Below the pieces are notes generated by a model. The model had not been told where the DNA came from, searched no databases, and saw only the letters and a list, made by a program, of their open reading frames with translations. Shown here one piece after another: positions 1 through 16,179 of a stretch of 64,000 bases of DNA (positions within the stretch are counted from its first letter, which is position 1; each line of letters starts with the position of its first letter). Position numbers and translations under genes: made by a program. The DNA is from Xylanibacter brevis ATCC 19188. GTDB lineage: Bacteria; Bacteroidota; Bacteroidia; Bacteroidales; Bacteroidaceae. The stretch covers positions 1-64,000 of the forward strand of contig NZ_KK211333.1 of assembly GCF_000621725.1 (NCBI RefSeq), read 5' to 3'.

Positions 1-265
1 CGGCCTGCTGGCTCTCCAAGGGAACCTGAGGCTGAGGAGTTTCTACCTTTGCCATCTCTACTGCATTAACATTAACCCGCGGCAAATTTACACATTTTGT
101 TTCAATTTCGTGCGGAGTTAGGTATAAACTTACCCAATTACTGACAGTTTGGACGTTAGGAAGACCATATTTCATGGCTATCACCTTACGTTCCTCACCA
201 CTTTGCAGATATTCCACTGCTACGGCACGCTTGAAAGCGCGTGCAAAACGTTGACCTTTTCTCAT
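1..265 (-). CDS. Transposase-like helix-turn-helix protein, 3' part outside window
   Basis: The reading frame opens with ATG at 265 and runs without a stop off the left edge, giving 88 codons. The N-terminal 50 residues are basic and look like a homeodomain-like helix-turn-helix of the IS3/IS66 OrfA type: RFARAFKRAVAVEYLQSGEE, then KYGLPNVQTVSNWV as recognition helix. The tail seen here is rich in Pro and Gln. It is probably the DNA-binding subunit of an insertion sequence. The partner transposase, if present, lies outside the window. It borders the AT-rich accessory block that follows, which fits a mobile boundary. The family is inferred from the helix-turn-helix pattern only. Confidence 0.6.
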   Translation of the reverse strand, partial: MRKGQRFARAFKRAVAVEYLQSGEERKVIAMKYGLPNVQTVSNWVSLYLTPHEIETKCVNLPRVNVNAVEMAKVETPQPQVPLESQQA

Positions 266-390
266 AACTCTTTTTAACTTTAAAAGGTTTGGCAGGAGTC
301 AACGTATTTCAGGCTAAGACAGTTTGTGGCATTGCGCTTAGAATGAAAAATAAACGAAGTAAGAAATTTGGTAGTGTAGGTTTTTATAGC

Positions 391-398
391 TATCTTTG
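391..398 (+). promoter_or_regulatory. Bacteroidota-type -7 box for the KilA-N gene
   Basis: TATCTTTG matches the phylum consensus TAnnTTTG. A TTTG lies at 367-370, 20 bases upstream, as expected for the -33 element. The distance to the ATG at 425 leaves a leader of roughly 20 bases. It probably drives the KilA-N and WYL genes together. Confidence 0.7.
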
Positions 399-424
399 CA
401 CACATTAAAATAATAGAACGACCT

Positions 425-1237
425 ATGGCAAAGATTACCGTCCAAAATACTGAAATAACGGTATTGTCTTACAACGACAAAGACTACATATCACTCACCG
501 ATATGGCAAACGGCAAGCAAAGTGAAAGCCGTGCAGCAGACATCATCAAGAACTGGTTACGGAACCGTTATACCATCGAGTTCCTTGGAACTTGGGAAAT
601 GATACATAACCCGAATTTTAAAGTGGTCGAATTTGACCACTTTAGGATGCAAGCAGGCTTGCCCACTTTTGTCATTAGTGCCAGTGAGTGGATTGAAAAG
701 ACGAATGCCATAGGTATCATTGTAAAGAAGGGACGATATGGCGGAACGTATGCTTTCAAGGATATTGCCTTTGAGTTTGGAACTGCAATTAGTGTGACTT
801 TTAAACTCTATCTTATAGAGGAATTCCAACGGTTAAAGGAGGAGGAACAGAAACTATTAGGATGGACAGCTAAGAGAGAACTATCCAAAATCAACTATCG
901 CATCCATACAGATGCCATCAAAAGCCATCTGGTACCTGATGAAGTCACACCAGCACAGGCAAGCATCATCTATGCTGAGGAAGCCGATGTCTTGAATGTT
1001 GCGATGTTTGGTATGACAGCCAAGCAATGGCGAGAAGCGAATCCCGACCTAAAAGGCAATATACGCGACTATGCCACCATAAACGAACTGATATGCCTGT
1101 CAAATATGGAGAATATCAACGCTGTGCTTATCAATGATGGGATGCCCCAAGGTGAAAGGCTCGTTAAACTCAATCAGATTGCCATCCAGCAAATGCAGGT
1201 GTTGGAGGGGAATAGCAATAGGAATCTGTTAAAGTGA
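425..1237 (+). CDS. KilA-N domain protein
   Basis: A 270-residue protein. Residues 1-140 match the KilA-N fold: a short strand with YISLTDMAN, then IIKNWLRNRYTIEFLGTWE, a small-residue loop, and a conserved end with TYAFKDIAFEFG and an EFQRL helix. KilA-N domains bind DNA and are known from phage antirepressors, large DNA viruses and many Bacteroidota accessory genes. The C-terminal 130 residues (KINYRIHTDAIKSHL onward, with MFGMTAKQWREANPDLKGNIRDYA) resemble the associated region often found in the same bacterial proteins. A strong promoter precedes it, and the WYL gene starts 9 bases after its stop. The target and role cannot be told from sequence. Confidence 0.8.
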   Translation: MAKITVQNTEITVLSYNDKDYISLTDMANGKQSESRAADIIKNWLRNRYTIEFLGTWEMIHNPNFKVVEFDHFRMQAGLPTFVISASEWIEKTNAIGIIVKKGRYGGTYAFKDIAFEFGTAISVTFKLYLIEEFQRLKEEEQKLLGWTAKRELSKINYRIHTDAIKSHLVPDEVTPAQASIIYAEEADVLNVAMFGMTAKQWREANPDLKGNIRDYATINELICLSNMENINAVLINDGMPQGERLVKLNQIAIQQMQVLEGNSNRNLLK

Positions 1238-1246
1238 AAGGCTTTT

Positions 1247-2143
1247 ATGACAGACAGGCTCTATGCAAAATACATGTGGCTCATCTCCACAATCCACGAT
1301 GCAGGCAAGATTTCGTTTGAGGATATTGCCTGCAAATGGGACGATGCGTATATCAATGATCTGCATCAGCCATTGAAACTGCGAACTTTCCATAACCATC
1401 GAAATGCGATACTGATGCAGTTTGGTATTGTGATAGAATGCCAGCGGGGCTCTAACCTATATTACATTGACAATCCTGATGCGCTGGAGAATGATTCTAT
1501 CAACCAATGGTTGCTCGATTCTTTTGCTGTTAGCAATTTGTTGATAGACAACCGCTCTATCAGTGATAGAATCATGTTGGAGGATGTACCATCTGGAAGG
1601 TACTATCTCGAAATCATTACGTCTGCGATGCGTGAGAATCGCCAAATAGTGATTGATTATGAGGATTTCTTTGGCAATACCATACAAGGGCTAAAGGTTA
1701 ATCCTTACTTTATCAGGTTGTTCAAACGTCGCTGGTATGTGATGGCGCTTGTAATGCCAGGAAAAGAGATTCACCGATTTGGTCTTGATCGCATCAAGCG
1801 CATAGAGGTTTTGGATTCCAAGTTCAGCTATCCAAAGGATTTCTCTCCCCAAGATTATTATACAGATTATTATGGTGTGTTCCATGATGCCAAGCCTATA
1901 ACTATACGATTGAAGGCCTATCGCGAGAAACCGAATTATCTGCGTTCACTTCCTCTGCATCATAGCCAACGTGAAATAGAGTCAAATGCTGATTATACTA
2001 TCTTTGAGTATAAGATAGCCCCAACCTACGATTTTATTCAGGAAATTCTGAGTCATGGTAACCAGTTGAAGGTGCTCTCGCCAGACATCTTCCGTCAGCA
2101 AATCAAGACCATTATTCAAGAAATGCACGATTTCTATAAATAA
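1247..2143 (+). CDS. WYL-domain transcriptional regulator
   Basis: A 298-residue protein. The N-terminal 80 residues look like a winged helix-turn-helix (ISFEDIACKWDDA, then RTFHNHRNAILMQFGI). The region from about 115 to 210 is a WYL domain: it has the conserved run RRWYVMALV and the following HRFGLDRIKRIEVL. WYL proteins bind nucleic-acid ligands and often regulate phage-defence or DNA-damage genes. It starts 9 bases after the KilA-N stop and is probably cotranscribed. As in many loci where a WYL regulator sits beside accessory genes, it may control the genes downstream, but no operator was identified. Confidence 0.85.
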   Translation: MTDRLYAKYMWLISTIHDAGKISFEDIACKWDDAYINDLHQPLKLRTFHNHRNAILMQFGIVIECQRGSNLYYIDNPDALENDSINQWLLDSFAVSNLLIDNRSISDRIMLEDVPSGRYYLEIITSAMRENRQIVIDYEDFFGNTIQGLKVNPYFIRLFKRRWYVMALVMPGKEIHRFGLDRIKRIEVLDSKFSYPKDFSPQDYYTDYYGVFHDAKPITIRLKAYREKPNYLRSLPLHHSQREIESNADYTIFEYKIAPTYDFIQEILSHGNQLKVLSPDIFRQQIKTIIQEMHDFYK

Positions 2144-2181
2144 TTTTTTCTGATATGCAATCATGTTGCATATTAGTGCCA

Positions 2182-2189
2182 TAACTTTG
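2182..2189 (+). promoter_or_regulatory. -7 box that sets the start of the next gene
   Basis: TAACTTTG matches TAnnTTTG. It lies inside the longest possible reading frame (which opens at 2163), so the true start codon must be downstream. The ATG at 2208 fits. Confidence 0.65.
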
Positions 2190-2207
2190 CAAAAAAATGA
2201 AAGAGTT

Positions 2208-2732
2208 ATGGCAAATATTGATGAACTTAAAAGATTGGGCGAAAGGTTCCCCAATAAGAATGTTGGTTGTGGCAATCCTGATGCGAAAATACTGGTTGTC
2301 ACGCAAAAAGCAGGAAACGAAGATGTAGATTTTGAGTATCTGGAAGAACTATTCGGAAATTTTCCTGATGCCGAAGATGAGAATGTCGATGTACTCAAAC
2401 ATTGTTATTATTTGGTGTATGACGAAGATTTACTGAAGGATGCTTTCTTTGACAATTTCCAGATAATACTATATTCATTCATAGATGGCAGCCATCTGGA
2501 TAATCATGATCCCACTAAGTTGTTTGGAATGAAATGGATGAGTGAGTGTACTGTTGAAGATGGAGCAGCACAACGTTTGTTTGTGGCACACTCTAAAGCA
2601 GATGGCAATAAACCCGAAAGGCTCATGTTCTGCACATATCCATTTGAAAAAGTTTCCTATATTATCCAGAAATGCACAAAACTATTGCTAAATTGGTTTC
2701 TGTTATACCCCAAAGAAGAAATATCCGAATGA
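2208..2732 (+). CDS. Diverged uracil-DNA-glycosylase-like protein
   Basis: A 174-residue protein. The start at 2208 (MANIDELKR) is chosen because a promoter box occupies 2182-2189. Residues 20-36 (CGNPDAKILVVTQKAG) match the first strand and loop of the uracil-DNA-glycosylase superfamily, where the usual form is GNPxADILFIGExPG. A second strand, DNFQIILYSF, follows in mid-protein. The rest is acidic and unrecognised. It is shorter and more diverged than the gene that follows, with which it shares the GNPxA motif, so the two look like distant paralogues. Glycosylase activity cannot be claimed, since the usual catalytic residues could not be assigned. It has its own promoter and is followed by another. 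Confidence 0.5.
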   Translation: MANIDELKRLGERFPNKNVGCGNPDAKILVVTQKAGNEDVDFEYLEELFGNFPDAEDENVDVLKHCYYLVYDEDLLKDAFFDNFQIILYSFIDGSHLDNHDPTKLFGMKWMSECTVEDGAAQRLFVAHSKADGNKPERLMFCTYPFEKVSYIIQKCTKLLLNWFLLYPKEEISE

Positions 2733-2758
2733 AGTCAGCAATACTCAAAAAGAATTGC

Positions 2759-2766
2759 TATATTTG
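2759..2766 (+). promoter_or_regulatory. -7 box for the UDG-like/GyrA-like/helical-repeat operon
   Basis: TATATTTG fits TAnnTTTG and is followed by C, as in most boxes in this window. It places transcription start just before the ATGs at 2788 and 2794 and rules out the upstream TTG at 2755 as start codon. Confidence 0.6.
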
Positions 2767-2787
2767 CAAGCAAATGTGCTAAAATTA

Positions 2788-3510
2788 ATGTTTATGGATA
2801 GAACAAAATTATTTGAAGAGTTCTTGGCGGAATGTAAGAATCGTAAAGAATGGAGTGGACAAGGTAACCCCAATGCTGACATTCTGTTTATTGGTAAAGA
2901 ACCACATAATGGTAAGTTAATTAAGGAGAAAGAAAAAATACAAGAGAAGTTGCAGAAACAAGAAGACCTTTGTAGAAGCGGAGTTTGGGGAACTGCCCCT
3001 CGTAAAGGAAATCCCACTTGGAGCAATTATCAAAACTTGATTGAAGAAGTCTATTCGGATAGAAAATTCGATCCAAGACTATTTGATTTTGAAAAGTACG
3101 CATTTACAACAGAACTTAATACAATTTTTCGACCAAAGGCTGTTCTTGATGAAGAAACAAAAAGTAACATAAACAAACGACTCCGTTTCTTCAAGGATTC
3201 GGAGTTTATAAATAGTTTCCCTGTTATAATATTAGCATGTAACAATTTTATTTCAAACGACAAAGAAAGAGGCTTCATATTAAATGACACCTTTGGTGTA
3301 AAATTTGATGATGAACTTGATTCAAATGGGAAACCAAAGGGAAAGCATGAAGAAAAAACACGCGGACATTGGTTTTATACACATCATGGCGATAATGGAA
3401 AAAAATTGGTGATACACACTCGGCAATTAAGTTTCCTTTTTGATTATTCTCTTATAGAGCATATGGCTAATGAAATTAGAGACCATCTAAAAAAACTTGG
3501 TAAAATATGA
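2788..3510 (+). CDS. Uracil-DNA-glycosylase-superfamily-like protein
   Basis: A 240-residue protein; start at 2788, or two codons later at 2794. Residues 24-39 (GQGNPNADILFIGKEPHN) are a clear motif of the UDG superfamily fold. Further conserved-looking blocks follow: NPTWSNYQNLIEE near 77, FTTELNTIFRP near 107, FPVIILACNNF in mid-protein and VIHTRQLSFLF near the end. This layout fits the UDG family as a whole, but I cannot assign it to a characterised clade or confirm a water-activating residue. Its stop overlaps the start of the next gene (ATGA), so it is translationally coupled to the GyrA-like protein and probably works with it. Confidence 0.6.
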   Translation: MFMDRTKLFEEFLAECKNRKEWSGQGNPNADILFIGKEPHNGKLIKEKEKIQEKLQKQEDLCRSGVWGTAPRKGNPTWSNYQNLIEEVYSDRKFDPRLFDFEKYAFTTELNTIFRPKAVLDEETKSNINKRLRFFKDSEFINSFPVIILACNNFISNDKERGFILNDTFGVKFDDELDSNGKPKGKHEEKTRGHWFYTHHGDNGKKLVIHTRQLSFLFDYSLIEHMANEIRDHLKKLGKI

Positions 3511-4064
3511 TACAGCGTAAATTTAAAATCAAGGACGGAGTCCTTTATGAAACAACAGAGGTAAGAATAGTAGATCGTACTAAGCTTTTTAAGTACAATC
3601 CAAATCTAAGGATGCTGACAGAAGATATCAGGCGTTCGAGAAAGGACGAACACTTTGAAAACTATCTGCTGAAGGCCGAAGAACTATTTGCTGAAGATGT
3701 AGATAAGGCAAAAGTTGTAAAAGATCCTGTGTTAGGTAATCATTCTATATTCTATTATATGTATGGACATATGACTGACTGGGTCCGCTATGCGGAAAAG
3801 GAAGTCATTTGCGCAAAGGCGATGTTAGTTCAGGCAATTCATATTGAAGAAACAATACAAATTATTAGGCAAAGCCGCGATATAGAAGATGCTACAAATA
3901 AACTGATGGATGTATTAAACTTGGATGAGGTAGGAGCAAAGTATGTAGCCAATAAAAGAATAAGCATCTTAACAGGTATCAGACCTGAACAACATAAAGA
4001 GTCTATTTTATATTTTGAAAAGCGACTTTCCAATGTAAAGGAACTGGCAAAATATGACAAATAG
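3507..4064 (+). CDS. Small protein resembling the GyrA coiled-coil/C-gate region
   Basis: A 185-residue protein whose ATG overlaps the previous stop. Residues 105-183 align by eye with the end of the type IIA topoisomerase A-subunit breakage-reunion domain. In GyrA a helix with LIR.S leads to a short segment of L...F.L, then QAQAIL..RL..LTGLE..KI and a long return helix. Here the same order is IIRQSRD, LMDVLNLDEV, AKYVANKRISILTGIRPEQ and a final helix. The N-terminal 100 residues are not recognised, and there is no catalytic tyrosine region or room for the winged-helix domain. It could be a dimerisation module, a mimic that touches gyrase, or a chance helical resemblance. The next gene starts 4 bases after its stop. 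Confidence 0.55.
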   Translation: MIQRKFKIKDGVLYETTEVRIVDRTKLFKYNPNLRMLTEDIRRSRKDEHFENYLLKAEELFAEDVDKAKVVKDPVLGNHSIFYYMYGHMTDWVRYAEKEVICAKAMLVQAIHIEETIQIIRQSRDIEDATNKLMDVLNLDEVGAKYVANKRISILTGIRPEQHKESILYFEKRLSNVKELAKYDK

Positions 4065-4067
4065 GTC

Positions 4068-4874
4068 ATGAGAAACTCTCAACATTGGAACTCTCCTCTG
4101 AAGTCTGTAATGAAAGACCTCCAGAGTGATAATAGACCAACACAGAATGCCGCCGTGAAAGAATTGAGGCGACGTTTTGCTGGACTTGATAAAGAGGAAC
4201 AGATGCAAGTCCTTGTGCATCACCTTCGTCGTGAAAAGTCATTTCGTGAATGGGCATACTCACGATTACTTGATTTGTGGGATGAGTCTTTTGAACCTAT
4301 CGTCAAAAGTTTATGGGAGCAGTACCATGAGGAAAAATGTGCTTGGGCTGTCATCAGGCATTTTCCCCTTGCGTATGTATTGGAACATAAAGAGGACTTA
4401 GCCATTGGAAAAAATCGCCCATTTGTGATCAGGCGTTTGTGTGAAGACAAATCTTACGCAGTTGATAGAGACAAACTTACCCCTTACGAATATATTTGGG
4501 TTCTCTCAACAACAGGAAGAGATATTACAACAGAAAGGGCATGGAGTATCCTCGTTGAAGCAACAAAAGATGTCTGTCAGGCAAAGGATGCTGACGATTA
4601 CGGACAAGGAGATACCTTCTCCATAAAGATAAATAAAATTCTTTATCATCTGGACAAGATGGATAAATCAGTCATTACGACCTCTTATCGGAATTGGTAT
4701 CAATCATCCATTGAAAACATCACGAATTCCCAGATATGGGATTGGTATAGGATCGCAAAACAGTTGAGACTTGATGGAATTAGGCACCCTTACGATATTC
4801 TCGTAGACAAATTATCTATGCATTTGCCAGAGTTAGAGAAGTTTACTATTAGAAAGAATTATTCTATTCAGTAA
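4068..4874 (+). CDS. Protein of unknown function with helical-repeat character
   Basis: A 268-residue protein. The N-terminal third has repeating amphipathic helices resembling HEAT repeats (NAAVKELRRRFAGLDKEEQ, VLVHHLRREKSFREWAYSRLLDLW, FEPIVKSLWEQYHEEKCAWAVI). The second half is rich in Trp and Tyr (YRNWYQSSIENI, IWDWYRIAKQLRLDG) and unrecognised. No signal peptide or membrane segment is seen. It starts 4 bases after the GyrA-like gene, so it is the third member of a tight operon. HEAT-like proteins often act as scaffolds, which would fit a multi-protein complex, but that is inference. Confidence 0.55.
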   Translation: MRNSQHWNSPLKSVMKDLQSDNRPTQNAAVKELRRRFAGLDKEEQMQVLVHHLRREKSFREWAYSRLLDLWDESFEPIVKSLWEQYHEEKCAWAVIRHFPLAYVLEHKEDLAIGKNRPFVIRRLCEDKSYAVDRDKLTPYEYIWVLSTTGRDITTERAWSILVEATKDVCQAKDADDYGQGDTFSIKINKILYHLDKMDKSVITTSYRNWYQSSIENITNSQIWDWYRIAKQLRLDGIRHPYDILVDKLSMHLPELEKFTIRKNYSIQ

Positions 4875-4881
4875 GCCTCGA

Positions 4882-4910
4882 AAGGAATAGGCTTAAAGCC
4901 TAATTCCCTT
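4882..4910 (+). terminator. Possible terminator after the accessory operon
   Basis: An inverted repeat GGAATAGGCTT / AAGCCTAATTCC with one bulged base and a one-base loop lies just after the stop at 4874. There is no run of T after it, so termination is only suggested by position. Confidence 0.35.
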
Positions 4911-5018
4911 ACTTCGTGTTTCACTTTGTCCTAATCCGAACTGCTCTTTGAACCATTTATTTATGGGCTTATCTGCGTTAATCTACGAAAAATACTTTTC
5001 TATTTCAACTTTATTTCA

Positions 5019-5026
5019 TATCTTTG
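5019..5026 (+). promoter_or_regulatory. -7 box for the polyferredoxin gene
   Basis: TATCTTTG followed by C. It lies inside the longest open frame (from 4948) and therefore argues for the ATG at 5053. Confidence 0.65.
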
Positions 5027-5052
5027 CACCATACAAAAAGACCCTCGTTTCT

Positions 5053-6537
5053 ATGCTAAAGAAAACAAGAAAAATACTAGGAATCACCTGCCTCGCAGGA
5101 CTCACACTGCTGTTTCTCGACTTCACCGGCACACTGCACCTCTATCTAGGATGGATGGCCAAAATGCAGGCACTGGAGGCCACACTGGCACTCAACGTCG
5201 TGGTGGTAGCGCTGCTGGCAGTAGCCACACTGATATTTGGTCGCATCTACTGCTCAGTGATCTGTCCGCTGGGCGTGATGCAAGACGTGTTCGGATGGTT
5301 GGGCAAGAAATCGAAGAAGAACCGCTATACCTACTCTAAAGCCATCAGTTGGTTGCGCTACACGATGCTAGTCATCTTTGCGGGCGCCCTATTTGCAGGC
5401 GCTGGCACGCTGGTGCAGCTATTGGCCCCCTACTCGGCCTTCGGTCGCATAGCCACCACGCTGTTGCAGCCCCTATGGATGATGGGCAACAACGCTCTGG
5501 CTGTCGTGGCCGAGCACTACGAGAGCTACACCTTCTACAGCGTGGACGTATGGATGCGATCGCTGCCTGTGTTCATCATCGCCCTGCTGACGCTGGCTGT
5601 ATTGGCAGTGCTGGCATGGAGAAACGGCCGTACCTACTGTAACACCGTCTGCCCCGTGGGCACCGCGCTGTCGCTACTGTCGCGCTTCTCGCTGCTGAAA
5701 GTGCGCTTCGACAAGAGCAAATGCCGCAACTGCTCACTGTGCACCAAGAACTGCAAGGCTGCCTGCATCGACTTTAAAGCCCACGAGATAGACTACTCAC
5801 GCTGCGTGGTATGTGGCGACTGCATAGATAGCTGCAAATTTGGCGCACTGAAATACACAACCGGTTTTAACAAGACGGAGAAAAAGAAGGAGGATAAAGA
5901 AGCTAATGGTCTCTCGCGTCGCTCGTTCCTGCTCACCTCTGCGCTGATGGCTACTGCCGCTATGGCTGAGGAGACAGAAGCGCTGGTAGATGGCGGACTA
6001 GCCGACATCGTAGAAAAGAAGGCTCCCACACGCACCACCCCACTGGTGCCCCCTGGCGCTCTGTCGTTGAAAAATATGGCGCAGCGCTGCACTGGCTGCC
6101 AGTTGTGTGTATCGGAATGTCCCAACGGCATACTGCGCCCCTCTACTGATATGATGCACCTCATGCAACCCGTGATGTCGTTCGAGCGCGGTTTCTGTCG
6201 CCCAGAGTGCACGCGCTGCTCGGACGTATGTCCCGCAGGCGCCATCAAGCCTCTGGACGCCATCGAGAAGTCGAGCATACAGATAGGCCACGCCGTGGTG
6301 GCTGCCGACTTCTGCATCTCGGCATTGGGCGAAGCTGAATGTGGCAACTGCGAGCGCCACTGTCCTGCCGGCGCTATTGAGATGGTGCCAGTGGACCCCA
6401 ACAACGAGGAGTCGAACTATGTACCTGCCGTCAACGAGGAGATATGCATCGGCTGCGGAGCCTGCGAGCACCTGTGTCCCGTACGCCCACTATCGGCCAT
6501 CCACGTGGAGGGACACGAAGTACACAAGATGATCTAA
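5053..6537 (+). CDS. Membrane polyferredoxin (NapH/NosR-like) with eight Cys clusters
   Basis: A 494-residue protein from the ATG at 5053. The N-terminal 200 residues carry about four membrane segments with two cytoplasmic CxxxCP motifs (CSVICPLG, CNTVCPVG) as in NapH/NosR/CcoG-type proteins. Then come 4Fe-4S motifs CRNCSLCTKNC and CVVCGDCIDSC, followed by an internal SRRSFLLTSALMATAAMA stretch that looks like a twin-arginine signal. The second half has CTGCQLCVSEC, CTRCSDVC, CGNCERHC and CIGCGACEHLC. It is a likely electron conduit from membrane quinol or ferredoxin to a soluble partner. The Fe-S aldo/keto reductase gene starts 23 bases downstream and may be that partner. It looks like a fusion of a NapH-type and a NapG-type protein. 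Confidence 0.8.
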   Translation: MLKKTRKILGITCLAGLTLLFLDFTGTLHLYLGWMAKMQALEATLALNVVVVALLAVATLIFGRIYCSVICPLGVMQDVFGWLGKKSKKNRYTYSKAISWLRYTMLVIFAGALFAGAGTLVQLLAPYSAFGRIATTLLQPLWMMGNNALAVVAEHYESYTFYSVDVWMRSLPVFIIALLTLAVLAVLAWRNGRTYCNTVCPVGTALSLLSRFSLLKVRFDKSKCRNCSLCTKNCKAACIDFKAHEIDYSRCVVCGDCIDSCKFGALKYTTGFNKTEKKKEDKEANGLSRRSFLLTSALMATAAMAEETEALVDGGLADIVEKKAPTRTTPLVPPGALSLKNMAQRCTGCQLCVSECPNGILRPSTDMMHLMQPVMSFERGFCRPECTRCSDVCPAGAIKPLDAIEKSSIQIGHAVVAADFCISALGEAECGNCERHCPAGAIEMVPVDPNNEESNYVPAVNEEICIGCGACEHLCPVRPLSAIHVEGHEVHKMI

Positions 6538-6559
6538 CTAATCATAACAAGGAAAAGAG

Positions 6560-7921
6560 ATGGACAGAAGAGATTTTCTAAAATATATGGGGATGGGGGC
6601 TGCTGCCACGCTGGCCGCCTGCACAGGAAAGAAAAGAATTGAGCAGACCGACAACGTCGGTGAACCACCAACGGGACAAATGACCTATCGCACCAACCCC
6701 ACCACAGGCGACAAGGTGTCGATACTGGGCTATGGCATGATGCGACTACCCCAGAAGCCCGACTCGGAGGAATTTGACCAGGACATGATCAACCAGCAGG
6801 TGGACTATGCACTGGCACACGGTCTGAACTACTTCGACACATCACCCGTGTACTGTCAGGGACAGTCCGAACGCTGCACAGGCATCGCCCTGAAGCGCCA
6901 TCCACGCAAGAGCTTCTTCGTGGCCACCAAATTGTCGAACTTCGACCCTAAGCTGTGGTCGCACAAGGCTTCTGTCGAGATGTACCACAACTCTATGAAA
7001 GAGTTGCAAGTGGACTACATCGACTACTACTTGCTGCACAGCGTGGGCGGTGGCGGCATGCAGAACTTCAGCCAGCGCTATCTGGACAACGGCATGCTGG
7101 ACTTCCTGATGGAGGAACGACGCGCCGGACGCATACGCAACCTTGGTTTTTCGTACCACGGTGATGTCGAGGTGTTCGACTACCTGCTTGCCAACCACGA
7201 CAAATACCACTGGGACTTCGTGCAGATACAGCTGAACTACCTGGATTGGACCTATGCCAACGAGATGAACGACCGCAACACCGATGCCTCGTATCTCTAC
7301 GGCGAACTGCAGAAACGCGGCATCCCTGCCGTCATCATGGAACCACTGTTGGGTGGACGACTTGTGAAACTGCCCAGCTACGTGGTGAGCCAACTGAAAG
7401 AGCGCGAGCCACAGAAGTCGCTGGCATCATGGGCCTTCCGCTATGCAGGAACCCCCAAGGGTGTGTTGACGGTGTTGAGCGGTATGACCTATATGGAACA
7501 CCTGAAGGACAACCTGCTGACCTACTGTCCGCTGCAGCCACTGAACGAGGAGGAGCAGCACTTCCTTGACACTGAGATTGCTCAACAGATGATGGAAATG
7601 GACACCATCCCCTGCAACGACTGCAAATACTGCATGCCCTGCCCTTACGGCATTGATATCCCTGCCAACTTCCTGCACTACAACAAGTGGATCATTGACA
7701 AGAAGATGCCCAACGACGCAGGCGACCCCGAATATCGCAAGAATCGTCGTAACTACTTAATCAGTCTTGACCGTGCCGTGCCACACGACCGACAGCCCGA
7801 CCACTGTATCATGTGCAACCACTGCATAGACGTGAAGCACTGTCCGCAGAACATACGCATACCCGTGGAACTACACAAAATCAGTCAACGATTGGAAGAA
7901 CTGCGACGCGACAATTCGTAA
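6560..7921 (+). CDS. Twin-arginine exported aldo/keto reductase with C-terminal Fe-S domain
   Basis: A 453-residue protein. It begins with MDRRDFLKYMGMGAAATLAAC: a twin-arginine motif followed by a lipobox Cys, so it is probably an exported lipoprotein. Residues 45-330 form an aldo/keto reductase barrel. The usual active-site groups are visible: YFDTSPVY (Asp and Tyr), FFVATKLS (Lys) and YYLLHSVGG (His). The C-terminal 100 residues carry two ferredoxin-like clusters, CNDCKYCMPCPYG and CIMCNHCIDVKHCP. The substrate is unknown. It follows the polyferredoxin directly and probably receives electrons from it. Confidence 0.85.
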   Translation: MDRRDFLKYMGMGAAATLAACTGKKRIEQTDNVGEPPTGQMTYRTNPTTGDKVSILGYGMMRLPQKPDSEEFDQDMINQQVDYALAHGLNYFDTSPVYCQGQSERCTGIALKRHPRKSFFVATKLSNFDPKLWSHKASVEMYHNSMKELQVDYIDYYLLHSVGGGGMQNFSQRYLDNGMLDFLMEERRAGRIRNLGFSYHGDVEVFDYLLANHDKYHWDFVQIQLNYLDWTYANEMNDRNTDASYLYGELQKRGIPAVIMEPLLGGRLVKLPSYVVSQLKEREPQKSLASWAFRYAGTPKGVLTVLSGMTYMEHLKDNLLTYCPLQPLNEEEQHFLDTEIAQQMMEMDTIPCNDCKYCMPCPYGIDIPANFLHYNKWIIDKKMPNDAGDPEYRKNRRNYLISLDRAVPHDRQPDHCIMCNHCIDVKHCPQNIRIPVELHKISQRLEELRRDNS

Positions 7922-7945
7922 GCTCGTCGTTTATCAAGAAAATGG

Positions 7946-7974
7946 AAAAAATGAGGTTAGCCCCTCATTTTTTT
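7946..7974 (+). terminator. Intrinsic terminator after the aldo/keto reductase
   Basis: An 11-base-pair stem (AAAAAATGAGG with CCTCATTTTTT) and a six-base loop end in a run of T. It separates the Fe-S redox pair from nrdD. Confidence 0.8.
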
Positions 7975-8008
7975 CATTAAAAAGCATTTCCATTTCAGAT
8001 ATTATTTG

Positions 8009-8016
8009 TAACTTTG
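8009..8016 (+). promoter_or_regulatory. -7 box for nrdD-nrdG
   Basis: TAACTTTG followed by C. It leaves an unusually long 5' untranslated region of about 130 bases before the nrdD ATG. Confidence 0.65.
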
Positions 8017-8034
8017 CAAACGAATCAAGTTGAA

Positions 8035-8084
8035 CGTTTTGGGAAACTTTTCGAAAATGATAAATAAAAAAGTTGTCCAAAACG
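8035..8084 (+). promoter_or_regulatory. Long hairpin in the nrdD 5' untranslated region
   Basis: CGTTTTGG (8035-8042) pairs with CCAAAACG (8077-8084). After a symmetrical three-base internal loop, ACTTTT (8046-8051) pairs with AAAAGT (8068-8073). It lies between promoter and start codon and has no T tract, so it is not a terminator. It may be a regulatory RNA structure or a repressor-binding palindrome. No NrdR-type box was recognised. Confidence 0.4.
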
Positions 8085-8154
8085 GAAAACTTCGAGACAC
8101 AAGATAACATATCAAACAACCTATAATACGAACTTTAATAAAAAAGGAAAAGGA

Positions 8155-10254
8155 ATGGAAATCAAGAACTTTACCATCACAAAGAGAGACGGTTCGAAAG
8201 ACCAATTCTCACTAGACAAGATTATGAATGCCATCGTCAAAGCATTCGAAAGCGTAGATCAACCTGCTGACCTGAGCACCATCTCAAAGATCATCAGTCA
8301 TCTGGATATGCACGATGACATCAAGGTAGAAGACATCCAGAACCAGGTTGAAGAAGCCCTGATGCGCGAAGGCTTCTACAAAGTGGCAAAATCGTTTATC
8401 CTCTATCGCCAAGAGCACACCGAGGACCGCGAGACACTGGAGAAGATGCTGTTCCTTTCCGAATACATGGAGTCTGTCAATGCCGCTACCGGTTCAAAAT
8501 ACGACGCCAACGCCAACGTGGAGCACAAAAACATTGCCACACTGATTGGCGAGCTGCCTAAATCAAACTTCATTCGTCTGAACCGCCGTCTGCTCACCGA
8601 CCGCATCAAGAAGATGTATGGCAAGGAGCTGGCCGACGAATACATAGACAAGCTGACACACCACTTTATATATAAGAACGACGAGACATCGCTGGCCAAC
8701 TACTGCGCCTCGATCACGATGTACCCCTGGCTCATCGGCGGCACGATGTCTATTGGCGGCAACTCCACTGCCCCCACCAACATGAAGTCGTTTGCTGGTG
8801 GTTTTGTAAACATGGTGTTCATGGTCAGCTCGATGCTGAGCGGCGCCTGCGCCACACCCGAGTTCCTGATGTACATGAACTACTTCCTGGGCAAGGAGTA
8901 CGGACTGGACTACTATAAGCGCGCCGACGAACAGGGCGACCTGAGTCTGAAGAAGCGCACCATCGACAAGATCATCACCGACTACTTCGAGCAGATCGTA
9001 TATACGCTCAACCAGCCCACTGGCGCACGTAACTATCAGGCCGTGTTCTGGAACATCGCCTACTACGACAAGTACTACTTCCAGAGCATCTTTGGCGAGT
9101 TCTACTTCCCCGATGGCTCAAAGCCAGATTGGGACGGATTGTCTTGGCTGCAGAAACGCTTCATGAAGTGGTTTAACAAGGAGCGCACCAAGACCCTGCT
9201 CACCTTCCCCGTAGAGACAATGGCACTGCTGGTGGACGAGAACGGCGAGTGCAAAGACAAGGAATGGGGCGAGTTTACAGCCGAGATGTACAGCGAGGGA
9301 CACTCGTTCTTCACCTACATGAGCGACAATGCCGACTCGCTGAGTTCGTGCTGCCGTCTGCGCAACGAGATCACCGACAATGGCTTCTCCTACACACTGG
9401 GAGCTGGCGGCGTCAGCACTGGTTCGAAATCGGTGCTCACCATCAATCTGAACCGCTGCATCCAGTATGCCGTGAACCACAACATCGACTATCTGGAGTA
9501 TCTGGGCGGCGTCATCGACCTGTGTCACAAGGTGCAGACGGCCTACAACGAGAATCTGAAAGAGCTGCAGGAGCACGGCATGCTGCCACTCTTCGATGCT
9601 GGATATATCAACATCGCGCGCCAGTATCTCACCATCGGTATCAACGGATTGGTAGAGGCTGCCGAGTTTATGGGTCTGAAGATCACCCCCAACGACGAGT
9701 ATAAGAAGTTCGTGCAGGGCATTCTGGGCCTCATCGAGCAATACAACAAGAAGTATCGCACCAAGGACCTGATGTTCAACTGCGAGATGATTCCTGCAGA
9801 GAACGTAGGCGTGAAGCACGCCAAGTGGGATCGCGAGGATGGCTACTTCGTACCTCGCGACTGCTACAACAGCTACTTCTACGTGGTAGAAGACGACTCG
9901 CTCTCTATCATCGACAAGTTTAAACTGCACGGAGCTCCCTACATCGAGCACCTCACTGGCGGTTCGGCACTGCACATGAACCTCGACGAACACTTGTCTA
10001 AGGATCAGTATCTGCAACTGCTGAAAGTAGCCGCACAGGAAGGTTGCAACTACTTCACGTTCAACATTCCCAACACTGTGTGCAACGACTGTGGACACAT
10101 CGACAAGCGCTATCTGCACGAATGTCCTAAGTGCCACTCGAAGAACGTTGACTACATGACTCGCATCATCGGATATCTGAAGCGCGTCAGCAACTTCTCG
10201 CAAGCCAGACAGGAGGAGGCCTCACGCCGCTTCTATGCACACGCAGAGAAATAA
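8155..10254 (+). CDS. nrdD: Anaerobic (class III) ribonucleoside-triphosphate reductase
   Basis: A 699-residue protein, full length for the family. Residues 1-95 are an ATP-cone (ITKRDGSKDQFSLDKIMNAI), the allosteric nucleotide site. The barrel contains ANYCASITMYPWLIGG and SGACATPEF. Near the end are a zinc-binding CNDCGH...CPKC pair and the glycyl-radical loop RIIGYLKRVS, with the radical glycine at about residue 673. It makes deoxynucleotides without oxygen, using formate and a radical installed by NrdG, whose gene starts 14 bases downstream. This fits an obligate anaerobe. Confidence 0.97.
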   Translation: MEIKNFTITKRDGSKDQFSLDKIMNAIVKAFESVDQPADLSTISKIISHLDMHDDIKVEDIQNQVEEALMREGFYKVAKSFILYRQEHTEDRETLEKMLFLSEYMESVNAATGSKYDANANVEHKNIATLIGELPKSNFIRLNRRLLTDRIKKMYGKELADEYIDKLTHHFIYKNDETSLANYCASITMYPWLIGGTMSIGGNSTAPTNMKSFAGGFVNMVFMVSSMLSGACATPEFLMYMNYFLGKEYGLDYYKRADEQGDLSLKKRTIDKIITDYFEQIVYTLNQPTGARNYQAVFWNIAYYDKYYFQSIFGEFYFPDGSKPDWDGLSWLQKRFMKWFNKERTKTLLTFPVETMALLVDENGECKDKEWGEFTAEMYSEGHSFFTYMSDNADSLSSCCRLRNEITDNGFSYTLGAGGVSTGSKSVLTINLNRCIQYAVNHNIDYLEYLGGVIDLCHKVQTAYNENLKELQEHGMLPLFDAGYINIARQYLTIGINGLVEAAEFMGLKITPNDEYKKFVQGILGLIEQYNKKYRTKDLMFNCEMIPAENVGVKHAKWDREDGYFVPRDCYNSYFYVVEDDSLSIIDKFKLHGAPYIEHLTGGSALHMNLDEHLSKDQYLQLLKVAAQEGCNYFTFNIPNTVCNDCGHIDKRYLHECPKCHSKNVDYMTRIIGYLKRVSNFSQARQEEASRRFYAHAEK

Positions 10255-10268
10255 CCCTAAACCCCAAT

Positions 10269-10736
10269 ATGCTGAAATATGTAAATACAGGCATCGTCTT
10301 TCAGGAAATACCCGACGAGGTGACACTGGCCATCAACATATCCAACTGCCCTTGTCACTGTCCTGGCTGCCACAGCCAGTATCTGTGGGAAGACATTGGC
10401 CTGCCTCTCAATACCGAAGCCATCGACGACTTCGTGTCGAAATACGGCAACGATATCACCTGCATCGCCTTCATGGGAGGCGATGCAGATCCTGTATCAG
10501 TGAATATGCTGGCACAGTATATCCATGAGACGCACCCCACCTATAAGGTGGCGTGGTATAGCGGACGCATACGCATACCGGCTGCCATCCATAAAGACGA
10601 TTTCGACTTTATCAAGATAGGCCCCTTCATCCGTCATCTGGGCCCACTCAACAAACCTACCACCAACCAGCGCCTCTATCGCAAGGATGCCGACGGCAAC
10701 TTTGAGGACATCACCGAACGATTCTGGAAGAAATGA
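10269..10736 (+). CDS. nrdG: NrdD-activating radical SAM protein
   Basis: A 155-residue protein of usual length. The radical-SAM cluster motif CxxxCxxC is present as CPCHCPGC near residue 31, followed by GGDADP in the SAM-binding region. It generates the glycyl radical in NrdD. It overlaps the next gene by an ATGA junction, so the HAD phosphatase is translationally coupled to it. Confidence 0.95.
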
Positions 10737-11461
10737 AACAGTATAAAGACATCTTCATCGATTTCGACGACACGCTCTACGACACACACGGCAATGCCGT
10801 ACTGGCACTGGCAGAGATCTTCTCACGCTTCCAGCTGGGGCGCTATTTCGACGATGCGCAAATCTTCTACGACGAATACTGGCGCACCAATATCGACCTG
10901 TGGAGCCGCTATGCCAAGGGCGAGATCATACGCGACTATCTCATCGTGGAGCGCTTCCGCCGTCCGCTCACCGTCAGCCCTGAGCTGAAGGCACAGTGCG
11001 AAGCAGATGGCGACGCCTTTCGCCAGTTCTGCCTGCAAGTCAGCGATGTATTTCTGGACTTCTGCGCCACCAAGCCTGGCGTGGTAGAGGGAGCTCATGA
11101 GCTGATGCGCTATCTCAAAGGAAAGGGCTACCGAATGCACATGTGCAGCAACGGCTTTCACGAGGTGCAGTACAAGAAGCTGAAGGCTTGCGGACTGCAA
11201 GACTACTTCAACACCATCGTGCTGAGCGAGGATGCCGGTGCCAACAAGCCCGCGCCACAGTTCTTCGACTATGCCATGAAGCAGACTGGCGCCTCGCCTC
11301 AAGACACCATCATGATAGGCGACAACTACAGCACGGACATACTGGGAGCAAAGCAGGCCGGACTGGACACCATCTTCCTGAACCGATGGCCCGACTATCC
11401 TGCCGAAGGGCCTGTGACACACGAGGTGAAAACGCTGGCCGAGATTATGAACATATTGTAA
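10733..11461 (+). CDS. YjjG-type HAD pyrimidine nucleotidase
   Basis: A 242-residue HAD hydrolase. Motif I is [11 protein letters not shown] near residue 8, motif II the Ser of MCSNGF, motif III the Lys of ANKPAPQFF, and motif [17 protein letters not shown]1-type helical cap lies between motifs I and II. The arrangement fits YjjG/YfnB non-canonical pyrimidine nucleotidases, which clear damaged or unusual dUMP-type nucleotides. Coupling to nrdDG supports a role in nucleotide pool hygiene. Substrate assignment is inference. Confidence 0.75.
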
Positions 11462-11508
11462 CACGACATACATATATACTACAAAAAAACTTATCATTAA
11501 TACCATCT

Positions 11509-12738
11509 ATGAAAGAAGAACAAATATTGATACGCATCACCGGTCAGGACCGACCAGGACTGACAGCTGCGGTGATGGGCATTTTAGCAAAATACGACGC
11601 ACAGATTCTGGACATCGGTCAAGCCGACATTCACGCCACGCTGTCACTGGGCATCCTGATACGACTGAACGAAGAGAGTTCGGGCCCCGTGATGAAAGAG
11701 CTGTTGTTCAAGGCCACCGAACTGGGAGTGAACATTGGCTTCTCGCCCGTCACTGACGAGGAATACGAAGACTGGGTGGGACATCAGGGCAAAAACCGCT
11801 ACATCCTGATGGTGATGGGCCGACAACTAGAGGCCAAACAGATTGAAGCTGCCACACGCGTCATCACCGACCAAGGACTGAACATCGACTCTATCATCCG
11901 TCTGACAGGCCGCAAGAGCATCAAGAACCCTGGCAAACACGTGCGCGCCTGCATTGAGTTCTCGCTGCGTGGCGAACCTCGCAACCGTCAGGAGATGCAG
12001 TCGAAGTTCATGAAGCTATCAGCCGATATGGAAATAGACTTCTCGTTCCAGAAAGACGATATGTTCCGCCGCATGCGCCGTCTCATCTGCTTCGATATGG
12101 ACTCTACGCTCATCCAGACTGAATGCATCGACGAACTGGCAGAGCGTGCTGGCGTCGGCGACCAAGTAAAGGCTATCACGGAGAGCGCTATGCGTGGCGA
12201 GATTGATTTCAAAGAGAGCTTCAAGCGCCGTGTGTCTCTACTGAAAGGACTGGACATCAGCGTGATGCAGGACATCGCTGAACACCTGCCCATCACTGAA
12301 GGTGCCGACCGACTGATGACCATCCTGAAGCGCTGTGGCTACAAGATTGCCATCCTGAGTGGTGGATTCACCTACTTTGGCGAATATCTGCAGCGCAAAT
12401 ATGGCATCGACTACGTCTATGCCAACGAACTGGAAGTGGACGACAACGGCAAACTGACTGGCAACTACGTGGGCGAAATCGTAGATGGACAGCGCAAAGC
12501 AGAACTGCTGAAACTCATCGCACAGGTGGAAAAGGTCAACCTGGCACAAACCATTGCCGTAGGCGACGGTGCCAACGACCTGCCTATGATATCGGAAGCA
12601 GGCCTAGGCATTGCCTTCCACGCTAAACCACGTGTAGTGGCCAATGCCAAACAGAGCATCAACACCATCGGACTTGATGGCGTGCTCTACTTCCTGGGTT
12701 TCAAAGACTCTTATCTGGGCGACCAAGGTAAAATGTAG
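11509..12738 (+). CDS. serB: Phosphoserine phosphatase with N-terminal ACT domains
   Basis: A 409-residue protein from the ATG at 11509; the longer open frame upstream overlaps the HAD gene and is not used. The first half has two ACT-like regulatory domains (ILIRITGQDRPGLTAAVMGIL and ILMVMGRQLEAKQIEAATRVI). The second half is a SerB HAD domain: CFDMDSTLIQTECIDELA near residue 194, ILSGGFTYF, and AVGDGANDLPMISEAG. It catalyses the last step of serine synthesis. Serine is also a substrate for tryptophan synthase, whose operon follows, but a separate promoter lies between. Confidence 0.95.
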   Translation: MKEEQILIRITGQDRPGLTAAVMGILAKYDAQILDIGQADIHATLSLGILIRLNEESSGPVMKELLFKATELGVNIGFSPVTDEEYEDWVGHQGKNRYILMVMGRQLEAKQIEAATRVITDQGLNIDSIIRLTGRKSIKNPGKHVRACIEFSLRGEPRNRQEMQSKFMKLSADMEIDFSFQKDDMFRRMRRLICFDMDSTLIQTECIDELAERAGVGDQVKAITESAMRGEIDFKESFKRRVSLLKGLDISVMQDIAEHLPITEGADRLMTILKRCGYKIAILSGGFTYFGEYLQRKYGIDYVYANELEVDDNGKLTGNYVGEIVDGQRKAELLKLIAQVEKVNLAQTIAVGDGANDLPMISEAGLGIAFHAKPRVVANAKQSINTIGLDGVLYFLGFKDSYLGDQGKM

Positions 12739-12809
12739 AAAATAATTGTTATCTGCAAATAAAAAGAAAGAAAATCGGCAAAATATTTGGCAGTTTGAAA
12801 GAAAACTAT

Positions 12810-12817
12810 TACTTTTG
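12810..12817 (+). promoter_or_regulatory. -7 box of the trp operon
   Basis: TACTTTTG followed by C, about 30 bases before the trp leader peptide start. It is the only good box between serB and trpB. Confidence 0.65.
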
Positions 12818-12848
12818 CCAACGAAATTAAAAACAAGACAATAAGAAA

Positions 12849-12905
12849 ATGACAAGAATAGCAAACTATTGGTGGTGGCATAGCTCAAGATTCAACAGAT
12901 CGTGA
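12849..12905 (+). CDS. trpL: trp operon leader peptide
   Basis: A short frame of 18 codons encodes MTRIANYWWWHSSRFNRS and a TGA stop. Three consecutive TGG codons (12870-12878) are the hallmark of a ribosome-stalling sensor for charged tRNA-Trp. It lies after a promoter and before a strong hairpin (12948-12977) and trpB. When tryptophan is scarce the ribosome should stall at the Trp codons and alter folding of the downstream RNA. The alternative antiterminator pairing could not be assigned with confidence. The peptide is not similar in sequence to enterobacterial TrpL, so the call rests on design and position. Confidence 0.85.
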   Translation: MTRIANYWWWHSSRFNRS

Positions 12906-12947
12906 GAAGATAGCCGCGTACCTATTAGATTGCTAAAGGAAATATAG

Positions 12948-12977
12948 AGGGGCCTGTCGTTCTTACGACGGGCCCCT
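12948..12977 (+). terminator. trp attenuator hairpin
   Basis: A 13-base-pair stem (12948-12960 with 12965-12977) has one G-T wobble and the four-base loop TCTT. It is very GC-rich, and only a weak T-rich stretch (TTAAAATTT) follows. It stands between the leader peptide and trpB, as expected for an attenuator. Confidence 0.75.
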
Positions 12978-13017
12978 TAAAATTTACCACAGATTTCAAC
13001 ACAAAGCAATAATATAT

Positions 13018-14223
13018 ATGAGTAATTATCAAGTCAACGAAAAAGGATTTTACGGCGAATTTGGCGGTGCCTATGTGCCCGAGATTCTCTACAAGTGCGT
13101 GCACGATCTGCAGGAAGCCTATCTGCCCATCATCGAGAGCGAGGAGTTCAAAAAGGAATACCACGCCCTGCTGAAGGACTACGTGGGACGCCCTTCACCA
13201 CTCTACTACGCTCAGCGCATGAGCGAGCGATATGGTTGTCAGTTGTATCTGAAGCGTGAAGACCTGAACCACACCGGCGCACACAAGATCAATAACACCA
13301 TTGGTCAGATCCTGCTGGCAAAGAAGATGGGCAAGACGCGCATCATCGCTGAAACAGGTGCCGGACAGCATGGTGTGGCCACTGCTACGGTCTGCGCACT
13401 GATGAACATGAGGTGCGAGGTGTTTATGGGTGCCACCGATGTGGAACGCCAGCACACCAACGTAGAACGCATGAAGATGCTGGGAGCCGAGGTTCATCCT
13501 GTTCGCACAGGCAACATGACCCTCTCTGATGCATGCAGCGAGGCCATTCGCGACTGGTGCTGTCATCCGCAGGACACGTTCTACATCGTGGGTTCTACTA
13601 TGGGTCCCCATCCTTATCCCGACTTGGTAGCGCGCATGCAGAGCGTTATCTCTGAAGAGATCAAATGGCAGTTGGAAGAGAAGATAGGCCGCAACTATCC
13701 CGACTACCTCATCGCCTGCATAGGCGGCGGCAGTAATGCTGCCGGCACCATCTACCACTACATGGACGATGAGCGCGTAAACATTGTGCTGGCAGAAGCT
13801 GGCGGACACGGATGGCAAACCAACCACACCGCTGCCACCATCCACAAAGGCACCACTGGCATTCTGCACGGCGCCAAGATGCTGGTGATGCAAGACGAGA
13901 ACGGACAGATAGAGGAAGCCTTCACCATCTCGGCAGGACTCGACTACCCTGGCGTTGGTCCTATGCACTGCAATATGGCCAAACAGGGACGCACCAAAGT
14001 GCTCTCTATCAACGACGACGAAGCTATCTATGGCGGATACGAACTGACCCGCATGGAGGGTATCATCCCTGCCATTGAGAGTGCACACGCCATTGCGGCA
14101 CTGTCGAAACTTTCGTTCAAGCCCACCGACGTGGTGGTACTCACCGTCAGCGGTCGTGGCGACAAAGACGTAGAGACTTATCTGAAGAACAAACAAATGG
14201 CAAAGGAATATGGCAACTTTTAA
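13018..14223 (+). CDS. trpB: Tryptophan synthase beta chain
   Basis: A 401-residue protein of typical TrpB length. It joins indole and serine to form tryptophan. The PLP lysine is in HTGAHKINN near residue 91. The glycine-rich phosphate loop is CIGGGSNAAG, and ETGAGQHGVA is also present. Here trpB is first in the operon, the usual order in Bacteroidales. Its end overlaps the trpE start by 14 bases. Expression should depend on the leader peptide and attenuator. Confidence 0.98.
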   Translation: MSNYQVNEKGFYGEFGGAYVPEILYKCVHDLQEAYLPIIESEEFKKEYHALLKDYVGRPSPLYYAQRMSERYGCQLYLKREDLNHTGAHKINNTIGQILLAKKMGKTRIIAETGAGQHGVATATVCALMNMRCEVFMGATDVERQHTNVERMKMLGAEVHPVRTGNMTLSDACSEAIRDWCCHPQDTFYIVGSTMGPHPYPDLVARMQSVISEEIKWQLEEKIGRNYPDYLIACIGGGSNAAGTIYHYMDDERVNIVLAEAGGHGWQTNHTAATIHKGTTGILHGAKMLVMQDENGQIEEAFTISAGLDYPGVGPMHCNMAKQGRTKVLSINDDEAIYGGYELTRMEGIIPAIESAHAIAALSKLSFKPTDVVVLTVSGRGDKDVETYLKNKQMAKEYGNF

Positions 14224-16161: not shown

Positions 16162-16179
16162 CATACAAACACAAAAAAG

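Follow-up and report, generated by a model that had tools for sequence, protein, structure and literature searches.

The 64,000-nucleotide stretch analyzed here (the window) opens contig C5 of the 3.49-Mb genome of Xylanibacter brevis ATCC 19188 and carries a run of six plus-strand genes: KilA-N, WYL, UDG0, UDG, GYR and HEL. The last three had been singled out, in a reading of the letters alone (the sequence-only reading), as a tight operon of a uracil-DNA glycosylase (UDG)-like, a GyrA-tail-like and a helical-repeat protein, possibly an undescribed defense or DNA-processing system. The features of the array are listed below, with E-values after model names; L numbers denote the loci compared, and genes beyond the window were called by simple picking of open reading frames (ORFs) rather than taken from annotation.

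425..1237, plus strand: KilA-N domain gene, 270 aa (Pfam KilA-N 1.4e-17; PADLOC candidate defense family PDC-S22 1.5e-131; 75% identical syntenic copy in L110)
1247..2143, plus strand: WYL/WCX regulator, 298 aa (Pfam WYL 1.3e-10, WCX 8.4e-8; PDB WYL-domain proteins 6.4e-8)
2153..2173, between WYL and UDG0: perfect 21-bp palindrome ATATGCAA-N5-TTGCATAT, probable WYL operator, the sole site in the 3.49-Mb genome at ≤1 mismatch
2182..2189, plus strand: TAACTTTG, possible Bacteroidetes-type -7 element, just 3′ of the palindrome and before UDG0
2208..2732, plus strand: UDG0, 174-aa UDG-like paralogue, degenerate (E 1.7e-6 against the UDG family, relaxed hhalign)
2759..2766, plus strand: TATATTTG, possible internal promoter element, just 5′ of UDG
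2794..3510, plus strand: UDG, UDG-superfamily protein, 238 aa (model pLDDT 90; alternative in-frame ATG at 2788)
3507..4064, plus strand: GYR, stand-alone GyrA C-gate protein, 185 aa (NCBIfam gyrA model 1.3e-6; profile of 18 same-family GyrAs 1.1e-15; hhalign 8.2e-13)
4068..4874, plus strand: HEL, alpha-solenoid (HEAT/ARM-like), 268 aa (all-helical model, pLDDT 81; 84% identical syntenic copy in L110)
2-265, minus strand: helix-turn-helix (HTH) fragment in an 88-aa open frame (HTH_28 2.2e-5; 24.9 bits against a Pfam cut-off of 25)

UDG, GYR and HEL form the end of the run and, as had been proposed, all three ORFs are open on the plus strand and closely packed: an ATGA overlap joins UDG to GYR, and 3 bases, not 4 as first given, separate the GYR stop from the HEL start. 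The boundaries drawn around the trio were nevertheless too narrow, the unit beginning upstream with UDG0, before which lie the palindrome and the possible -7 element. The array occupies the AT-rich block originally described (GC content of 34-43% over positions 1-5000 versus 47-56% over 5001-20000, in 1-kb steps), and Pfam confirmed its KilA-N and WYL genes. The supposed transposase fragment was recovered as the HTH-bearing frame, the score of which falls just short of the Pfam cut-off; it may be a transposase remnant. Pairwise ratios of nonsynonymous to synonymous substitution rates (dN/dS) ranged from 0.06 to 0.33 across 11 comparisons. The PADLOC families (2023) yielded no match at E≤1 for UDG, GYR, HEL or UDG0, while the KilA-N and WYL proteins of the array do match; Rfam returned nothing at gathering scores in the window or in L106.

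An AlphaFold2 model of UDG, built with 48 sequences, had a mean predicted local distance difference test score (pLDDT) of 90 and a predicted TM-score of 0.90. All 21 Foldseek matches to this model at E≤0.001 belong to the UDG superfamily (TDG, family 4, MUG), as do the 50 rows shown by VIA, headed by 4zby, the family-4 UDG of Sulfolobus tokodaii (Z 10.8, root-mean-square deviation 3.4, 155 aligned residues). As modeled, UDG almost certainly adopts the alpha/beta fold of the superfamily, in line with the initial guess. At the profile level, hhalign of UDG against 11 family-4 UDGs (those of 18 fetched loci that passed a motif filter) gave an E-value of 2.2e-6 and a probability of 89. Other searches gave weaker matches or none: a PDB profile search ranked two family-4 UDGs first, only at E 0.77-1.2; alignment to UNG with hhalign was of no value; single-protein Pfam scans of UDG, HEL and UDG0 returned nothing at E≤1; Pfam scans of 48 UDG relatives gave weak, scattered matches, each in two members at most; and the BFVD viral library held no match at E≤0.001, with named phage UDGs at E 0.002-0.005.

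The nearest solved folds, family-4 UDG and UdgX (Z 8.6-10.8), share with UDG the G-x-G-N-P...IG motif region and differ from it at the active site. The family-4 motif A, GE-A/G-P, reads G-K-E in UDG, K35-E36 replacing E-G/A; the uracil-reading Asn, N82 in the numbering of 4zbx/4zby, aligns with E107 under a relaxed hhalign setting; and UDG (P0001) has no CxxC pair. With this altered motif A, a Glu for the Asn and no CxxC, UDG falls outside family 4, the GEAPG-type motif A, the uracil-reading Asn and the Fe-S cysteines being features of that family. The His motif is replaced by H-T-R-Q-L-S, and the relaxed alignment sets the family-4 His at Q211. E36, W76, Y79, Q80 and E107 are each conserved in 48/48 sequences of an alignment (A5) that joins the window protein to 47 relatives 225-290 aa long, two of the 49 such relatives (L103 and L127) being excluded. 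In a broader set (A2, n = 16), E36 and Y79 are found in 16/16, W76 and H208 in 14/16, and position 107 is Glu in 15 sequences and Asp in one.

An acidic residue at this place recalls Brig1, an anti-phage alpha-glucosyl-hydroxymethylcytosine DNA glycosylase which excises the modified cytosine from phage DNA (PMC11078745). According to the published description, through which the comparison is made, Brig1 shares with UDG the superfamily fold and the same Sulfolobus enzyme, 4ZBY, as best structural match, and its E147, substitutions of which (E147A and E147Q) affect immunity, is set against N82, as E107 of UDG is by alignment. The legend of the homologue figure names Firmicutes, Proteobacteria, Actinobacteria, Cyanobacteria and Planctomycetota, with no mention of Bacteroidota; the Brig1 gene immunizes alone, and the sections available describe no GyrA C-gate, solenoid or pseudo-glycosylase partner. 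Also comparable is Brig3-BapA, a 5-hydroxymethylcytosine DNA glycosylase operon (PMC13160076, preprint), in which, again as described, a UDG-superfamily glycosylase with a key acid is encoded with an overlapping partner gene, the partners in the window differing in being a GyrA C-gate protein and a solenoid. The acid of Brig3, D127, is essential and discussed as a possible general base; the authors list Brig1 pocket residue 147 beside Brig3 127, and the part of the preprint available does not state that D127 lies at N82. We favor the view that UDG is a Brig-like glycosylase for a cytosine-type base, since the acidic E107 would take the place of the Asn on the Watson-Crick face of the base. In favor of this view, a classical UDG in which Asp replaces the uracil-reading Asn (N123D) excises cytosine (PMC3989344).

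GYR is 185 aa long and its residues 94-180 correspond to positions 368-454 of the profile of 18 same-family GyrAs (E 1.1e-15, 34% identity in the profile alignment), the coiled-coil and C-gate positions. This region is the primary dimer interface of GyrA. It is also the sole region matched, the remainder of GyrA, including the catalytic Tyr domain and the C-terminal wrapping domain, having no match in GYR; the GyrA-related module perceived by the sequence-only reading is therefore real, but it is the C-gate and not the tail. GYR genes at other loci independently matched the same GyrA region, both beside UDG (L109, 1.5e-15; L114, 5.1e-13; L129, 1.7e-9) and beside WYL (L054, 6.2e-12). A search of the GTDB family matched GYR in 214 of 251 genomes, long GyrA frames accounting for nearly all of these; in the matches listed, short stand-alone frames occur only in the window and in genome G083. 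Two further candidates were recognized, at L052 by phmmer against the window protein (2.2e-6) and at L049 by eye; both proteins were built into the GYR profile used for neighbor counts, and their matches to that profile are so by construction. In L110, a deletion of ~290 bases relative to the window (L110:8711-9000) removes the GYR C-gate, while UDG0, UDG and HEL remain open.

HEL was modeled as all-helical (pLDDT 81, from a 5-row alignment), and its structural matches are generic HEAT/ARM solenoids, none of them specific, the best (Z 8.3) lying under the caution level that the tool sets for repeats; Foldseek returned none at E≤0.001. The guess of a helical-repeat protein thus held. Relatives of HEL were found in 17 of the 251 family genomes. 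A second HEL-family gene lies in the same genome (L055:8141-9166, contig C17 of G000; 37% identity over residues 8-174), with no UDG or GYR found alongside. Among 69 HEL neighbors, three ADP-ribosylglycohydrolases, two TY-Chap1 and two WG-repeat proteins were matched at E≤1e-5; these rows (A10) were hand-picked from 100 ORFs, L066, short or unlikely ORFs and some recognizable housekeeping genes being left out, so that the counts are not a fair rate.

UDG0 aligned to the UDG family over 161 columns under the relaxed hhalign setting and is kept in L110 (84% identity) and L109 (55%). By alignment, G34-K35-E36 is replaced by T-Q-K, E107 by Tyr and H208 by Cys, and nothing corresponds to the W76-Y79 segment. 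The dN/dS of UDG0 (0.19-0.22) speaks for selection rather than decay, and the protein is probably a pseudo-enzyme under selection.

The palindrome at 2153-2173 is retained in the syntenic L110, and L054 has two copies, one (1 mismatch) preceding GYR and the other a UDG0-like start where the contig ends; in L109, where no WYL gene precedes UDG0, a search of the 41 bases 5′ of UDG0 showed no such palindrome. The palindrome is a likely WYL operator of the unit UDG0-UDG-GYR-HEL, although Pfam called no HTH domain in the WYL protein that would bind it. The TAACTTTG octamer fits what we take to be the Bacteroidetes -7 consensus, with no clear -33 element seen; TAnnTTTG alone is weak promoter evidence, as 34 such sites lie on the plus strand of the 64 kb. 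The second of them in the array, before UDG, may be an internal promoter. In their published descriptions, the BrxR and CapW regulators of defense loci (PMC9122601, PMC9122588) resemble this arrangement in that a WYL regulator stands beside defense genes (here putative) with a palindrome before the next gene; they differ in that the adjacent genes are BREX or CBASS, as opposed to a glycosylase set behind a predicted operator. In L054 (positions 2250-3135), GYR has the WYL 3′ end and palindrome on both sides, an arrangement suggestive of insertion by duplication, and the second copy runs into the UDG0-like start at the contig end; the G083 genome to which it belongs (84% complete) yielded no UDG0 or UDG match.

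Comparison of the window with L110, which has the same six-gene order with a shortened GYR, revealed an uneven divergence. The WYL, UDG0, HEL and KilA-N proteins are 86%, 84%, 84% and 75% identical, respectively, and the UDG proteins 47%. DNA identity, scored in 150-base steps, is 78-93% over 851-2800, 53-62% over 2801-3400, 68% over 3401-3550 and 77-93% in the aligned parts of 3551-4900, with 54-63% at the start of KilA-N (401-850). Synonymous divergence (dS) is 0.33 for UDG0 and 0.35 for HEL, compared to 1.56 for UDG, 1.14 for WYL and 2.50 for KilA-N. The window UDG and that of Segatella baroniae are 75% identical, and the same figure holds for a second UDG type shared by L110 and L109; that two metagenome-assembled genomes (MAGs) have this second type argues against an assembly chimera. 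On these comparisons, UDG has been replaced relative to UDG0 and HEL, within an exchange that is a mosaic and in which the UDG protein stands out by a history differing from theirs. Such a replacement fits an enzyme with specificity under pressure. The nearest UDG relative, that of S. baroniae B14 (L107:7487-8702), follows an RNase_T-family exonuclease gene (9.2e-21) at a distance of 22 bases, so that its partner is not one of those in the window.

UDG is patchily distributed, being present in 6 of the 251 genomes of the family, in 16 of the 374 of the order and at 49 loci in the GTDB collection; 47 of the 49 records are titled as Bacteroidota, the others being one MAG titled Alphaproteobacteria and one titled Chlorobiota. 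Relatives were also found on 4 IMG/VR contigs, one of which seems to be a locus also present in a Bacteroides ihuae chromosomal record. No match came from scanning viral contigs with P0001, P0003 and P0002 as single proteins, from searching plasmids with P0001, P0003 or two further UDGs, or from searching phages with P0001 or P0002.

Gene neighborhoods were scored within 3 kb of 62 UDG genes, made non-redundant by an 80-residue key (L096 supplies two); the resulting partner counts are lower bounds, as several genes lie near contig ends. WYL was found beside 12 UDG genes, HEL beside 8, GYR beside 7, a second UDG-like gene beside 5 and KilA-N beside 3, at least one of these partners accompanying 17. 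Both GYR and HEL stand beside 6 of the 62 (hypergeometric P 3.1e-6). Counting the window, L109 and L110 as one raised this value to 1.6e-4, or to 3.3e-5 when L129 was dropped as well, and omitting the L049 GYR alone gave 5.0e-5. Gene orders vary: L109 carries UDG0-UDG-GYR, preceded by part of a HEL gene and followed by a bpMoxR ATPase; L052, UDG-HEL-GYR; L049, WYL-UDG facing HEL and a weak GYR candidate; L114, HEL opposite UDG-GYR, with WYL; L129, UDG-GYR-WYL; L094 and L095, UDG-HEL. The 4-base overlap of the UDG stop with GYR is seen in the window, L110 and L129, and HEL proteins at distant UDG loci are 21-34% identical to that of the window. We consider the UDG/GYR/HEL association probably real. 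The set proposed earlier thus recurs at a few distant loci in several gene orders, but 45 of the 62 UDG genes lack all five partners, and the trio is a recurring sub-type, not a general rule for UDG. Nor does GYR always accompany HEL, an idea that was rejected upon finding a GYR candidate at only two (L049 and L052) of the 15 HEL loci outside the window.

The surroundings of UDG may point toward defense. Proteins within two genes of UDG (148 of 151 in set A8, three of L147 being left out) matched 154 PADLOC families at E≤1e-10, compared to 10 for 111 control proteins beside housekeeping UDGs (of 119 ORFs in A9, with eight bait or bait-position ORFs removed); as families and not proteins were counted and several families fall on one protein, this contrast gives a direction, not a rate. 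The 25 UDG-neighbor families listed include WYL, PDC-S22, PDC-M16A, SngB/SngC, type II and III restriction and type I specificity; control neighbors matched PDC-S01, mad3, mad8, BrxL and DpdF. At L109, a bpMoxR ATPase gene (L109:3623-5158; PF20030 1.5e-53) directly follows UDG0-UDG-GYR, a point of contact with the described MoxR-vWA-beta-propeller ternary conflict systems (PMC7159879), whereas no bpMoxR gene is found among the six genes of the window array.

Other UDG loci offered observations of their own. A coiled-coil-like protein precedes UDG in L087, L088, L099, L119, L123 and L131, with a shared N-terminal motif resembling, by eye, GKNxGKxxSNxxFGDKHSTPYRR; the two scanned (L087 and L119) had no Pfam match, and a C-terminal UDG domain of its own in the Flavobacterium-type partner was not supported (hhalign probabilities 0.2-0.3). 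GIY-YIG-like motifs spotted by eye in UDG neighbors of L105, L135 and L140 were not borne out by Pfam in the two proteins scanned (L105 and L135). L096:6581-8873 holds two UDG-family genes separated by a small gene and preceded by WYL, and in L048:10012-10953 a TIR-domain protein (PDC-S66 2.3e-101; TIR_2 8e-20) is encoded ~1.4 kb 3′ of UDG. On viral contig IMGVR_UViG_3300005144_000001 (L106:6872-8759), a retron-type reverse transcriptase (RT) gene (PADLOC retron RT models to 1.5e-75) shares a 4-base overlap with a UDG-family gene, and the 170-nt segment preceding the RT folds well (z -2.48), with 14 pairs in its closing stem; this single locus is possibly a retron with a glycosylase effector.

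Taken together, and with slightly less than even confidence, we read the array as an anti-phage base-excision module of Bacteroidota, Brig-like and under WYL control, in which the glycosylase is exchangeable. In such a module, WYL would repress the promoter before UDG0 by way of the palindrome and release it upon infection or DNA damage. UDG would then flip a base out of DNA, E107 contacting its Watson-Crick face, with a phage-modified cytosine as the probable target, and excise it using E36 at the motif-A position, leaving abasic sites that would block phage replication. The GYR C-gate would probably dimerize the complex or, alternatively, dock on gyrase; HEL would serve as solenoid scaffold; UDG0 may sense DNA or restrain the active enzyme; and UDG would be the exchangeable specificity part. 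Our confidence in these separate roles of GYR, HEL and UDG0 is low. The defense function proposed at the outset stays a candidate one, with only indirect support from the Brig1-type residue, the WYL and KilA-N neighbors, the PADLOC-matching neighbors and the replacement of UDG.

Several results weigh against this module. The E107/N82 correspondence needs the relaxed hhalign setting, which aligns the full length, the default stopping after motif A and the global setting placing the regions differently; the His motif is altered, with H208 and R210/Q211 as candidates for the His role; and E107 might be catalytic rather than base-reading, since the Brig3 acid is discussed as a general base. The GYR of L052 is a modest match to GyrA (hhalign probability 21) and that of L049 a weak one (probability 11), and the L110 GYR is truncated to 80 aa of the N-terminal part. 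Under the strictest counting (merged loci and no L049 GYR), the GYR-HEL association reaches only P 2.4e-3, and most UDG genes stand without the five partners. UDG is, furthermore, not the sole divergent part between the window and L110, given the dS of WYL and KilA-N and the first KilA-N stretch.

A further-reaching proposal, that of a hitherto undescribed, regulated multi-protein base-excision immune complex in which a cytosine-reading glycosylase, its dead twin, a GyrA C-gate for assembly or gyrase docking and a solenoid scaffold act together and the glycosylase is swapped as a specificity cassette against phage base modifications, is less likely than not, though of appreciable probability. 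In literature listings, mostly without subscription papers and limited to titles and abstract openings, none of the matches listed named a Bacteroidota Brig-like family, a UDG-effector retron or a stand-alone GyrA C-gate defense gene. Of the novelty originally suggested for the system, the GyrA C-gate partner is without precedent in our searches; anti-phage DNA glycosylases of a related kind (Brig1 and Brig3) are already in print.

Improbable, in our assessment, is a self-toxic cytosine-DNA glycosylase, with UDG attacking ordinary cytosine and UDG0, GYR or HEL silencing it until infection, in an abortive-infection or toxin-antitoxin-like unit. A degenerate paralogue does accompany UDG, with a probable WYL operator ahead of the two, and the cytosine-excising N123D mutant of a classical UDG is reported to be cytotoxic in E. 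coli (PMC3989344); yet with 45 of 62 UDG genes devoid of the five partners within 3 kb, no family-wide antitoxin is seen. We give similarly little credence to UDG, GYR and HEL being loose neighbors that share a regulated accessory island and have no joint function. The broken GYR of L110, the many UDG genes without GYR and HEL, and the fact that only 3 of the 17 HEL-containing family genomes are among the 6 with UDG would suit such neighbors, but the pair GYR and HEL is met again next to UDG in varied gene orders, with HEL proteins as divergent as 21-34% identity, and the 4-base UDG/GYR overlap is kept in three loci.

Less probable still is an accessory DNA repair role, in which the glycosylase would remove a damaged cytosine-type or other base from host DNA under a damage-responsive WYL regulator. 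UDG-superfamily enzymes are mostly repair enzymes, and a WYL regulator responsive to genotoxic stress has been reported in mycobacteria; against such a role, UDG is confined to 6 of 251 family genomes, was replaced relative to its neighbors and is found on IMG/VR contigs, and the host already has UNG. A gyrase-directed system, in which the GYR C-gate would pair with GyrA to block or recruit gyrase and UDG would act on gyrase-bound DNA, is very improbable: GYR does align over the C-gate at 34% identity in the profile alignment, but over the matched part its identity to the GyrA of its own host is 28%, compared to up to 39% for other genera.

On the favored reading, the UDG array would belong with anti-phage DNA glycosylases already known, very few of which, going by the papers available in part, have been described and tested so far, and its GyrA C-gate partner is without precedent in the literature searched. 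If the base-excision module is real, a Bacteroidota-wide family with the same acidic residue would bring the bacteria of gut and rumen, with their phages, into the range of anti-phage glycosylases, and bacterial immunity would gain two new design elements, a stand-alone gyrase C-gate and the exchange of a glycosylase inside an otherwise conserved operon. The UDG family would provide candidate enzymes for new modified-base specificities, of use in studies of phage DNA modification and as reagents.

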